Positions 22,504-26,053 of a DNA stretch of 64,000 bases are shown in pieces. The DNA lies in contig NZ_LGED01000231.1 in the NCBI RefSeq assembly GCF_001280085.1, positions 51,185-115,184 on the forward strand. Reading direction: 5' to 3'. How positions within the stretch are numbered: the stretch's first letter is position 1; each line of letters starts with the position of its first letter. The DNA comes from Saccharothrix sp. NRRL B-16348. Lineage in GTDB: Bacteria; Actinomycetota; Actinomycetes; Mycobacteriales; Pseudonocardiaceae. Both the position numbers and the translations under genes were made by a program. The notes under the pieces are model-generated. The model was given only the letters and a program-made list of their open reading frames with translations, was not told the origin of the DNA and did not search any database.

Positions 22504-23709
22504 ATGTCCAGGGGGTGGGTGCGGCTGCAGGCCGTCGTGGTGTCCGGTTCGGTGGCCGAAGGCCTGATGTTGTCGGTGCTGCCGTGGATCGCGGCGACGA
22601 TCACCTCCGACCCGCGGCAGCTGTCGCTGGTCAACGTGGTCGGCCAGTCGCCGTGGCTGGTGTTCTCGCTGTTCGCGGGCGTGTTGATCGACCGGGTGCG
22701 GCGGCGGGTGGTGCTGGCGTCGGCGTACGCGGTGCAGGGGTGCGCGGCGTTGGCGCTCGCCGTGGCGGGTGTGACCGACGCGTTGAGCCTGCCGCTGCTG
22801 GTGGTCCTGGCGTTCGTGGTGACGTCGGCGCAGGTGCTCGGCGACGGCACGACGGGCGCGCTGGTGCCGGAGGTGGTGGAGCCGGGCCGGCTGCCGGCGG
22901 CGAACACGCGGCTGATGGTGCTCGACCGGGGCGTGGTGCAGTTCGTGGTGCCGCCGGTGGCGGGCTTCCTCGTGGCGTTCGGCCTCGGCACGCCCGCATG
23001 GGTGGCCTTCGTGGCCGCGCTGGTGGCGTTGGCGCTGGTCCGGGGGCTGACGTCGGCTCCGGTGACGCCGTCGACCAAGCACCCGTTGCGCGACATCGGG
23101 GACGGGCTGAGGTTCCTGGTCGCCACGCGGCTGCTGCTGTCGATCACGGTGGCGGTGGGGCTCGGGTCGTTCGCGGCGGCCGCGACGATGGCGATGTTCG
23201 TGCTGTACGTGAAGGAGCTGCTGGGGCTGGGCGCGGTCGGCTACGGCGTGATGCAGGCGGTGCTGGCGGCCGGGTGGGTGGTGTCGTCGTTCGTGGTCGG
23301 CCGGGTGGTCGACCGGCTCGGGTACGCGTGGTCGATGCGGCTGGCCCAGGTCGGGATGGTGGTGACCATCGCGTTGTTCGCCGTGCTGCCGCCGTGGGCG
23401 TGGGCGGTCGGGGTGGTGATGTTCGCCCAGTCGGCGACCGTGATGGTGTGGAACGTCTGCTCGCAGTCCAGCCGGCAGCGCTTCACACCGCCCGCGCTGC
23501 TCGGCCGGGTGCTCACCAGCCACCGTGCGCTGGCTTGGGGGCTGACGCCGCTGGGCGCTCTGGCGGGCGGGTTCGTGGCGGCGGGGTTCGGGCTGCGCGC
23601 GGTGTGGGTGATGGCCGCGCTGATCCAGCTCGGCGCCCTGACCACCGCGTGGCTCGGCCTCTCACCGCGGGCGTTCCGGGAGGCGGAACTGGCGGCGGCC
23701 ACCCGGTGA
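22504..23709 (+). CDS. major facilitator superfamily transporter
   Basis: A 401-residue membrane protein with about 12 hydrophobic segments. The MFS loop 2-3 motif appears as FAGVLIDRVRRRVVL and its second-half counterpart as FVVGRVVDRLGYAWSMR. The profile fits drug/metabolite exporters of the MFS_3 type. It probably exports a small toxic molecule sensed by the divergent ArsR-type regulator. ATG 22504 is preferred; GTG 22495 adds three residues. Confidence 0.85.
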   Translation: MSRGWVRLQAVVVSGSVAEGLMLSVLPWIAATITSDPRQLSLVNVVGQSPWLVFSLFAGVLIDRVRRRVVLASAYAVQGCAALALAVAGVTDALSLPLLVVLAFVVTSAQVLGDGTTGALVPEVVEPGRLPAANTRLMVLDRGVVQFVVPPVAGFLVAFGLGTPAWVAFVAALVALALVRGLTSAPVTPSTKHPLRDIGDGLRFLVATRLLLSITVAVGLGSFAAAATMAMFVLYVKELLGLGAVGYGVMQAVLAAGWVVSSFVVGRVVDRLGYAWSMRLAQVGMVVTIALFAVLPPWAWAVGVVMFAQSATVMVWNVCSQSSRQRFTPPALLGRVLTSHRALAWGLTPLGALAGGFVAAGFGLRAVWVMAALIQLGALTTAWLGLSPRAFREAELAAATR

Positions 23710-23739: not shown

Positions 23740-24012
23740 TCAGAGTGGGGGGATCAGGCCCGGGAACTTGCGCGCGCCGACGCAGTGCGGGCACTCGCGG
23801 CCGTTGTCGACGGTTCGCGGAGCGCCCCCGATCACCGCGGACGTCGGGTTGGCGATGAACCCCGCCCCGCCGCACAGGTGGCAGATGGTGCGGGGTTCGG
23901 AGGTCACGCCGAACAGGTCGTCCTCGTCCTCGACGTCATCGTCGTCGAACCCGTCCTCGTCCTCTTCCGGGTCGAAGTCGTCCTCGTCGTCGTCATCCTC
24001 ACGCGGATCCAC
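23740..24012 (-). CDS. acidic zinc-ribbon-like protein
   Basis: A 90-residue protein. The first ~35 residues are almost only Asp and Glu, followed by ICHLCGGAGF and ECPHCVGARKFPG. The two CxxC pairs suggest a single zinc ribbon or DnaJ-type CxxCxGxG knuckle. It starts with GTG 24012. The gene is convergent with the MFS gene. Role unknown; acidic-tail zinc proteins of this size recur in actinobacteria. Confidence 0.7.
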   Translation of the reverse strand: MDPREDDDDEDDFDPEEDEDGFDDDDVEDEDDLFGVTSEPRTICHLCGGAGFIANPTSAVIGGAPRTVDNGRECPHCVGARKFPGLIPPL

Positions 24013-24072: not shown

Positions 24073-25230
24073 TCACGGCCGCTGCCTCGGCTGGTCCACG
24101 AAGCTCTGCGCGGTAATCGCGTACGAGCCGAAACCGAGCAGTTCGAAGGTGTCCGGGTCGAACACGAGCGCCCTGTCCCGTAGATCATCGCTCCCCGACC
24201 TGGGCGTGGAGAGGGTGATGCCGAGCCCTCGACGTCCGGCGCCGTCCCGGGCGTCCGGCACCACCTGGAGCCGAGGCTCCCGGGCGAGTGCCTCGTACAG
24301 CGCGGCCCTGGAGAGCGGCGGTACGTACATGCCGTGGCTCCACACGAGCATCCTGGGCGAGTAGCTGATCGGCGTGCCTTCCTCGGCCGCGTTCATGTAG
24401 GCGACCATGGCATCCACGTCGGTCGGCAGGCGGGACAGGTACGCCGGGTTCGGCATGCACGGCTGCGTGGCGCCGGACACGATCTTGAAGTCCTCGAGCA
24501 CCGCCGCCTGCCCGTCCCGGCACCCCGGGACGTCCCGCTCGCGGCCGTCGTGGTCGACGTACACCCCGTCGCGGGTGCCGTCGACCGACAGCCAGGACTC
24601 CCTCCAGTTCCCGTCCGCCTGCTCGATCCGCTGGTACACGAACTGGTCGGGCCGGGGCGGGGAGGTGGGGTCGGCGCGGGCGATCCGGGCGGCGTGGTTG
24701 AGCAGCCGCACCGCGTCGGTCACCGGCTGTGCCGAAGCCGGCGGCGTGGCCGCGGCCCGCCCGTCGGACGGCACCTGGCCGAACGCGATCAGGCTGATCG
24801 TCACGGCGACGGCCGCCACGAGCAGCAGCACGTCGCGGTCCTCGGCGGACAGCCCGTCGAGCGCGCCCGCCAGCCGCGACCGCACGGCCCACGCGGTCAC
24901 CTCGGCGGCGACGCGGTCCGCGTGGTCGTGCTCGTCGGTGTCCGCCGCGCGGTCCCGGTAGCGGTGTGCCTCGTGCCTGCGGTGCTGTCCGACGAGGTTC
25001 GTCGCGATGCCGTACAGCCACGGCCGGGCGTCCGGTCTGGCCCGGTCGTAGCGCTGCCGCTTGTCGAACGCGGCGAGGAACGTCTCGGCCACGAGGTCGT
25101 CCGCGACCTGGGCGCCGAGCCTGCGCTCGAGGTACCGCCGGATGTGCGGCGCGTGCCGGTCGAAGATCGCCGCGAAGGCGTCCGGCTCGTGCCGCGACCG
25201 GTCGATGATCTCGGCGTCGGTGGGTGTCAT
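24073..25230 (-). CDS. ECF sigma region 2 fused to a CU044_5270-type membrane protein
   Basis: A 385-residue hybrid. Residues 1-120 are ECF sigma region 2: AFAAIFDRHAPHIRRYLERR, DDLVAETFLAAF and DARPWLYGIATNLV. At DGLSAEDRDVLLLVA, where region 4 should begin, the chain runs instead into a membrane helix (AVAVTISLIAFGQV). The rest is a CU044_5270-family extracytoplasmic part (RPDQFVYQRIEQADG, WLSVDGTRDG). In relatives these are two adjacent genes: a complete sigma factor and the membrane protein. Region 4 and the partner's N-terminus are missing, so an in-frame deletion is inferred near 24813-24820. ATG 25230 has GGAAAGG upstream. Confidence 0.8.
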   Translation of the reverse strand: MTPTDAEIIDRSRHEPDAFAAIFDRHAPHIRRYLERRLGAQVADDLVAETFLAAFDKRQRYDRARPDARPWLYGIATNLVGQHRRHEAHRYRDRAADTDEHDHADRVAAEVTAWAVRSRLAGALDGLSAEDRDVLLLVAAVAVTISLIAFGQVPSDGRAAATPPASAQPVTDAVRLLNHAARIARADPTSPPRPDQFVYQRIEQADGNWRESWLSVDGTRDGVYVDHDGRERDVPGCRDGQAAVLEDFKIVSGATQPCMPNPAYLSRLPTDVDAMVAYMNAAEEGTPISYSPRMLVWSHGMYVPPLSRAALYEALAREPRLQVVPDARDGAGRRGLGITLSTPRSGSDDLRDRALVFDPDTFELLGFGSYAITAQSFVDQPRQRP

Positions 25231-25378
25231 GGTGGCCTTTCCGGCTGGTTCCCGGTGAAGGGCGGTCACCTGTTATCCGCCGTCGGGCCGGATCGGGTTC
25301 GCGGGTGTGAGCGGAAGTTGACCGGTGTGTGAGGCCCCCTGGAGTAGCAAGGACCCACAAGCGGATCAGGGGGAGCAA

Positions 25379-26053
25379 GTGGACAAGGTGAACGCAGTGC
25401 CGCGCCATCGTCCCGGCGGCGCGGTCGAAGGCCGGATCCTCACCACGCCGGTGGGGCTGGCGTTCCCGCGGGACGTCACGTTCGAGTCGTGGGAGCAGGC
25501 GGGGCAGCGGATCTCCCGCATCGCCAGCTCGTCGGCGTGGTACTTGGGCGACTGGCTGGTCTTCGGGCAGGACAGGTACACCGACAGGTACCGTCGGGCG
25601 GTCGAAGCTGTGGGGCTCGACTACCAGACGTTGCGCAACTACGCGTGGATCGCGCGCAAGTTCGAGGCGTCGCGCCGCCGCCAGGGGCTGCCGTTCCAGC
25701 ACCACGCGGAGGTGGCCGCGCTGCCGCCCGCCGAGCAGGACGAGTGGCTCGACCGGGCGCAGCGGGAGGGCTGGTCGCGCACGGCGCTGCGGCGGGCGTT
25801 GCGGGAGAGCCGCGACCCCGGCTCGCGGTCGTCGGCGCGGGTGGTGATGCCGCGGGTCAACGCGGACGGCGACGCGGTGGACCGGTGGCGGCGGGCCGCG
25901 ATGGCCGCCAACGCCGACTTCGAGGCGTGGATCGTGGCGGCCCTCGACCGCGCCGCCGACCGGGACCTCGAGCTGGTCAGCGTGCCGCCGCTGGCGGAAC
26001 TGCCCGCCGAGCGGGAGTTCCTCAGCCTGCCCGCTGTGCGGCCGGCGTCATGA
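25379..26053 (+). CDS. LmbU-family transcriptional regulator
   Basis: A 224-residue protein. The LmbU core is clear: GLAFPRDVTFESWEQAGQRI, ASSSAWYLGDWLVFGQDRY, DYQTLRNYAWIARKFE and FQHHAEVAALPPAEQDEWLD. LmbU is the DNA-binding activator of lincomycin genes in Streptomyces, and relatives regulate antibiotic clusters. No biosynthetic cluster surrounds this copy. GTG 25379 follows AGGGGGA at a spacing of 4. Its end overlaps the convergent SnoaL-like gene by 32 bases. Confidence 0.85.
   Translation: MDKVNAVPRHRPGGAVEGRILTTPVGLAFPRDVTFESWEQAGQRISRIASSSAWYLGDWLVFGQDRYTDRYRRAVEAVGLDYQTLRNYAWIARKFEASRRRQGLPFQHHAEVAALPPAEQDEWLDRAQREGWSRTALRRALRESRDPGSRSSARVVMPRVNADGDAVDRWRRAAMAANADFEAWIVAALDRAADRDLELVSVPPLAELPAEREFLSLPAVRPAS

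Follow-up and report, generated by a model that had tools for sequence, protein, structure and literature searches.

A fused ECF σ/CU044_5270 gene without region 4 in Saccharothrix: a probable loss-of-σ allele of putatively mosaic ancestry

According to PMC8103513, ECF σ factors are defined by two domains, σ2 and σ4, which contact promoter and RNA polymerase. The locus described here raises the question of what remains of such a factor, and of the membrane protein encoded next to it, when both stand in a single reading frame from which σ4 is missing. The window, i.e. the whole stretch of 64,000 nucleotides from Saccharothrix sp. NRRL B-16348 that we analysed, contains such a gene, with the following features, all on the minus strand:

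24073..25230 (−): fused gene for a 385-aa protein, ECF σ region 2 followed by a membrane helix of mixed origin and the CU044_5270 ectodomain (ORF, Pfam, NCBIfam)
24814..25230 (−): σ half (codons 1-139), resembling S. luteola, with a complete region 2, ends after RDVLLLV
24076..24813 (−): partner half, a divergent block spanning codons 140-385
24076..24714 (−): residues 173-385, predicted to be extracytoplasmic, perhaps with a weak LolA/RseB likeness
24772..24831 (−): hydrophobic helix of mixed origin (residues 134-153), VLLLV of σ + part of the partner's membrane helix
24814..24817 (−): junction, 4-bp microhomology GGCG, 325 nt absent relative to S. luteola (operon alignment)
25272..25300 (−): GAACCC-N17-GATAAC, a candidate promoter of putative function that lies 41 nt ahead of the ATG

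The fused gene and its joint

The reading frame is open for 385 codons, from the ATG at 25230 to the stop codon at 24073; the longest ORF call starts at a GTG (25269), and the ATG is the start common to the orthologues. The first-pass annotation had described a complete region 2 whose frame runs past DVLLLVA into a membrane helix and a CU044_5270 ectodomain, with region 4 gone, and this description holds. Sigma70_r2 (PF04542) matches residues 23-88 with an E value of 1.2e-11 (44.6 bits vs a cut-off of 24; Pfam), accompanied by a PhyR_sigma2 match below its cut-off, and CU044_5270_fam (NF038083) matches from residue 134 onwards with 125.3 bits (curated cut-off 100; NCBIfam), both in one and the same ORF. 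No Pfam model for region 4 matches the fused protein up to E 1. The NF038083 match begins at profile position 32 of 284, i.e. positions 1-31, the cytoplasmic N-terminal segment, are absent. Seen as an ECF (group IV) σ factor the protein has σ2 but no σ4, and seen as a member of the CU044_5270 family it reaches the curated score but lacks the cytoplasmic segment.

In S. luteola the word GGCG stands at both ends of the stretch that is missing here (CTCGT[GGCG]TGG in the σ gene and CTGGC[GGCG]GCC in the partner gene), and the fused protein reads RDVLLLV-A-AVAVTISL at the joint, the peptide spanning it being RDVLLLVAAVAVTISL. The missing length is 325 nt relative to S. luteola and 307-325 nt relative to nine relatives, in each case 1 mod 3; as this is the offset between the σ and partner frames, the two frames are joined. 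Lost are region 4 from WEQL on, the end of the σ gene and about 60 partner residues comprising the cytoplasmic N-terminus and half of the membrane helix, the other half of which is now supplied by VLLLV, the hydrophobic residues with which region 4 begins. The maximum 19-residue Kyte-Doolittle value of the chimeric helix is 2.40; measurements on five intact partners gave 1.88-2.13. AlphaFold predicts one helix (129-149), with low confidence, and the σ half as a whole at block means of 50-76; its ectodomain model is confident, but largely mirrors the alignment and carries little weight.

That relatives carry two neighbouring genes was confirmed in a genus sample of 25 genomes, the window's own included, 24 of which match at E 1e-15. 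Twelve genomes besides the window's own contain an orthologous σ (70-92% identity) and 12 are without it; the four named relatives are Saccharothrix, with S. luteola as genome G010. At each of these 12 loci the σ gene (540-588 nt) still encodes region 4, and the partner gene (879-969 nt) is an ORF of its own in frame +1 that shares 8 nt with it; none of the 12 is fused, i.e. the fusion is not the normal form in close relatives, although one metagenomic protein, P0002, shares it. The fused gene resembles these two-gene operons in locus, σ region 2, partner family and a similar upstream block, but differs from them in having one ORF, in lacking region 4 as well as the cytoplasmic N-terminus of the partner, and in its highly divergent partner half. 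In a wider sample 32 of 200 family genomes match at E 1e-38, and a single match extends over both halves only in the window's genome, the longest others covering residues 1-194 (through a stop) and 92-385; nine candidates were scored per genome here, so that distant fusions could escape.

The window's genome is a draft of 278 contigs, which might suggest an assembly or sequencing artefact, but we consider this explanation hardly credible. P0002, found in a search of 5.8 billion proteins, also has 385 aa and an identical joint, and it differs from the window's protein at nine residues, four in the σ half and five in the partner half, three of the latter within residues 288-299. The same fusion in a second, distinct sequence makes an assembly error very unlikely; moreover, the word common to both sides of the joint is only 4 nt long, and the divergent partner half cannot derive from a collapsed luteola-like operon. 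Our main reading is that the fusion allele is real and inherited, a two-gene operon having been turned into one gene, and we assign it, jointly with loss of σ function and mosaic origin, a probability of roughly 0.62.

Two halves, two histories

The fusion had been ascribed to an in-frame deletion producing a membrane-tethered σ fragment. Joint and fragment are borne out, but a simple local deletion is not enough, since the two halves relate differently to S. luteola and their trees conflict. The σ half is 95% identical to S. luteola in DNA and 93% in protein (dN 0.042, dS 0.095; NG86), whereas the partner half is 65% and 53% identical, respectively (dN 0.45, dS 0.57; NG86), and lies between flanks of 89-95% DNA identity. 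In protein the partner half is 51-58% identical to nine main-clade orthologues and 40-45% to three others. The alignment to S. luteola upstream of and including the σ half runs at 94.6% over 3.2 kb, and that downstream of 23712 at 89.3% over 2.25 kb. In 60-base bins (the gapped end bin 22881-22940 excluded), 32/40 outside the partner half reach at least 0.90 and all at least 0.80, whereas the 12 bins of the partner half range from 0.55 to 0.72. The divergent block stops near the stop codon, and codon divergence from S. luteola has a single change point, two codons beyond the place where the two concatenated parts meet. Silent differences, counted at codons whose residues are identical, follow the same pattern, with 9/124 in the σ half vs 44/128 in the partner half (Fisher p 7e-8), as compared to 14/115 and 37/189 in the control pair G010-G022 (p 0.11).

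The σ DNA tree gives the window's gene a branch of 0.02 and groups it with S. luteola and G022 (90/94); a grouping with S. luteola is not rejected (p 0.34). The partner-half DNA tree, built without own-genome paralogues, places it near G005 and G016 with modest support (82/85) on a branch of 0.63; here the AU test rejects the grouping with S. luteola (p 0.00025) and that with S. luteola and G022 (p 0.003), results that long-branch effects could sway and for which the test group should have been named beforehand. A codon-model tree gives the same placements for both halves. The protein tree puts both fusion proteins within the orthologue clade of Saccharothrix and Actinosynnema (27 rows); their stem measures 0.99, the median end branch 0.095. 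A donor of the partner half was not found, the best match after P0002 being 53% identical over 98%.

Judged by these comparisons, the fused gene would be a mosaic, or else its partner half would have evolved extraordinarily fast. We read this as a partner half that stems from another Saccharothrix lineage and is probably also fast-changing, fast change alone being the rival. The latter would require that the segment was simply deleted in place and that the partner half then evolved very fast, under positive selection and without recombination. The position of the fusion partner within the orthologue clade, on its very long stem, fits such a course, as do the polarised amino acid changes of the partner half, 74 of which fall on the window's side and seven on the luteola side (35 ambiguous). 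Silent sites, however, have diverged as well (polarised 25:13 in the partner half vs 1:5 in the σ half, Fisher p 0.03), the partner-half topology with S. luteola is rejected, and the two bins that cover the stop codon and the bases directly after it are 95-97% identical, which together leave fast evolution in place as an unlikely, albeit serious, explanation. According to the mosaic reading, illegitimate recombination would have brought a divergent partner segment of a Saccharothrix lineage onto the local S. luteola-type σ gene, probably not by deletion alone. In the resulting gene region 2 is joined in frame, with GGCG as the microhomology, to the ectodomain and the outer half of the membrane helix of the partner.

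What remains of the switch

The fused protein has lost both region 4 and the cytoplasmic N-terminus of the partner, two domains that presumably contact each other in the intact pair. It would be anchored in the membrane, region 2 facing the cytosol and the ectodomain, possibly LolA/RseB-like, facing outwards. Without region 4 it should neither read a -35 element nor make the region-4 contact with RNA polymerase, and thus the switch should stop activating its promoters, perhaps its own included. Autoregulation is common among ECF σ factors according to PMC8103513, and, if present at this locus, it would mean that the fused gene has lost its own activator. Most likely, therefore, we are looking at a natural loss-of-σ allele that leaves a membrane-anchored ectodomain. 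Having lost region 4 and the partner's cytoplasmic segment, the fusion shows what remains once the switch is cut out, and it invites the question whether the extracytoplasmic domain is useful by itself.

GAACCC is kept in all 13 aligned upstream regions, but GATAAC in only five of the 13, and the CGT usual for an ECF -10 element is not evident in the GAACCC-N17-GATAAC block, which makes this a weak candidate promoter. A second such site lies at G000:C210:31840-31868 (L079:1501-1529), roughly 80 nt upstream of an ORF that, judged by eye, looks like a response regulator, with similar sites in G004, G010, G014, G017 and G022, and is possibly a conserved target of an ECF σ factor. The upstream region of the fused gene is shared with a divergent gene for an LmbU-family transcriptional regulator (25325-26053, +; NF038070, 224.5 bits vs a cut-off of 125). 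The gene that follows the fused one (23740-24012, −) encodes a short and strongly acidic protein with a CxxC...CxxC pattern; this protein is highly conserved among the relatives compared and has no Pfam or NCBIfam match. Three further CU044_5270 genes are present in G000 (contigs C24, C231 and C13), each with an ECF σ match close upstream on its own contig. In Saccharothrix hoggarensis a partner protein of 223 aa (P0022), encoded on a 7.6-Mb contig, begins after the membrane helix, reflecting either a mis-called start or another broken operon.

The system had also been suspected to be dominant-negative or decayed. Signs of advanced decay are absent: there are no internal stops, GC3 is 0.971 in the σ half and 0.935 in the partner half, and 69/71 and 56/62 conserved columns are kept, respectively (columns conserved at 90% among 105 σ rows and at 85% among 118 partner rows). 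A raised dN/dS of the partner half may nevertheless mean relaxed constraint. Relative to S. luteola, dN/dS is 0.79 for the partner half, as compared to 0.24-0.65 between S. luteola and its nine nearest orthologues, and 0.44 for the σ half, which lies in the range spanned by other pairs, e.g. 0.21 (G010-G022) and 0.57 (G010-G004). The partner half deviates at 6/62 conserved columns (~10%, family median 4%) and the residues it has lost include N and K in the SVNARGKDV block and W in GITWP; the site of the former is residues 288-299, where the three differences from P0002 cluster. These values fit an ectodomain core that is still constrained, though constraint may also be relaxed. The σ half is young relative to S. 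luteola, and hence its intactness says little about selection.

Beyond P0002, fusions of this kind recur. A profile search scored 7997 candidate proteins, 7079 of them at E 1e-20, and among the first 18 of the 120 matches listed at least ten are fused (P0002, P0146, P0119, P0172, P0159, P0241, P0242, P0243, P0174 and P0251), P0241, P0242 and P0174 having been called CU044_5270 fusions by eye. Region-4 matches are found in P0172, P0241, P0243 and P0251, but not in the other six; of the seven compared with the CU044_5270 model, five are over the cut-off and two, P0172 (96.8 bits) and P0159 (56.9 bits), below it. P0119 and P0251 come from named genomes. P0119 (Amycolatopsis sp. NPDC051061, 354 aa) is joined at the same RDVLLLV and lacks region 4, just as the window's protein, but it has lost the membrane helix as well, and its partner half clusters among Amycolatopsis proteins. 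In P0251, a single protein of 437 aa from Paractinoplanes maris, regions 2 and 4 are both present, along with a hydrophobic helix and CU044_5270. Our literature search found no paper naming the CU044_5270 family, for which these recurrent fusions provide a set of natural experiments.

These data bear on whether the fused gene might be a pseudogene in transit, i.e. a deletion broke the operon, no useful protein is made, and the frame is open only because little time has elapsed. A σ factor without region 4 should indeed be inactive, in the partner half dN/dS is raised and family residues have disappeared, the other nine fusions are joined at different places, as expected of random breakage, and P0146, P0159 and P0242 look frameshifted by eye. 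On the other hand, 385 codons are open in two sequences that differ at nine residues, GC3 shows no erosion, and amino acid changes of the σ half are about equally frequent on the window's side (four) and the luteola side (three; three more are ambiguous), so that we regard a pseudogene in transit as improbable, if a genuine contender.

The fused protein might conversely be a working regulator, its membrane-tethered region 2 being held at the membrane or released by proteolysis and competing for core polymerase or pairing with region 4 of another σ factor. The conservation of region 2, a rebuilt helix more hydrophobic than the native ones measured and the one-chain architecture of P0251 would suit this idea, as would precedents from the literature, namely fused σ-transmembrane-regulator proteins (IutY) and σ2 and σ4 acting as separate proteins (SigO-RsoA), as the sources cited below describe them. 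Arguing against it, the missing stretch (306 nt as query) has no close copy elsewhere in the window's genome, the best match being 83% identical over 65 nt beside a paralogous ECF σ match, i.e. a second copy of the lost region 4 was not found; the nearest analogue, P0119, has no membrane helix (maximum hydropathy 1.04), making the architecture inconsistent between fusions; and IutY, as described, retains both σ domains. Taken together, a working regulator appears distinctly improbable. More speculative, and to be given very little credence, is a selected repressor in which the ectodomain sensor would control the tethered σ2 fragment, directly or via proteolysis, in an inverted version of the ancestral activating switch.

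Comparison with known fused and split σ factors

The loss-of-σ allele has partial counterparts among known σ factors. RsoA of the Bacillus subtilis RsoA/SigO system consists, like the window's σ half, of a σ2 part only, but it pairs with a separate σ4 protein (PMC8103513), whereas a copy of the lost region 4 was not found in the window's genome; other ECF σ factors are present there, though the deleted segment has no close copy. ECF48, ECF52 and ECF53 of Actinobacteria are, according to PMC8999054, σ factors with C-terminal transmembrane portions expected to act as anti-σ, in which they resemble the fused protein, but they are described there as having a zinc-finger domain, and no such family is found in the fused protein (Pfam, NCBIfam). 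IutY of Pseudomonas putida (ECF243; PMC9249621, PMC8999054) likewise combines an N-terminal σ part, one membrane helix and an extracytoplasmic regulator in one chain. In these accounts it comprises σ2 and σ4 and a FecR-like periplasmic part and is released by Prc and RseP; in the window's protein helix and ectodomain are predicted, but σ4 is absent, which sets it apart from the IutY type. The best-described membrane-fused σ factor, as portrayed in these sources, hence keeps both promoter-reading domains, unlike the fusion in the window.
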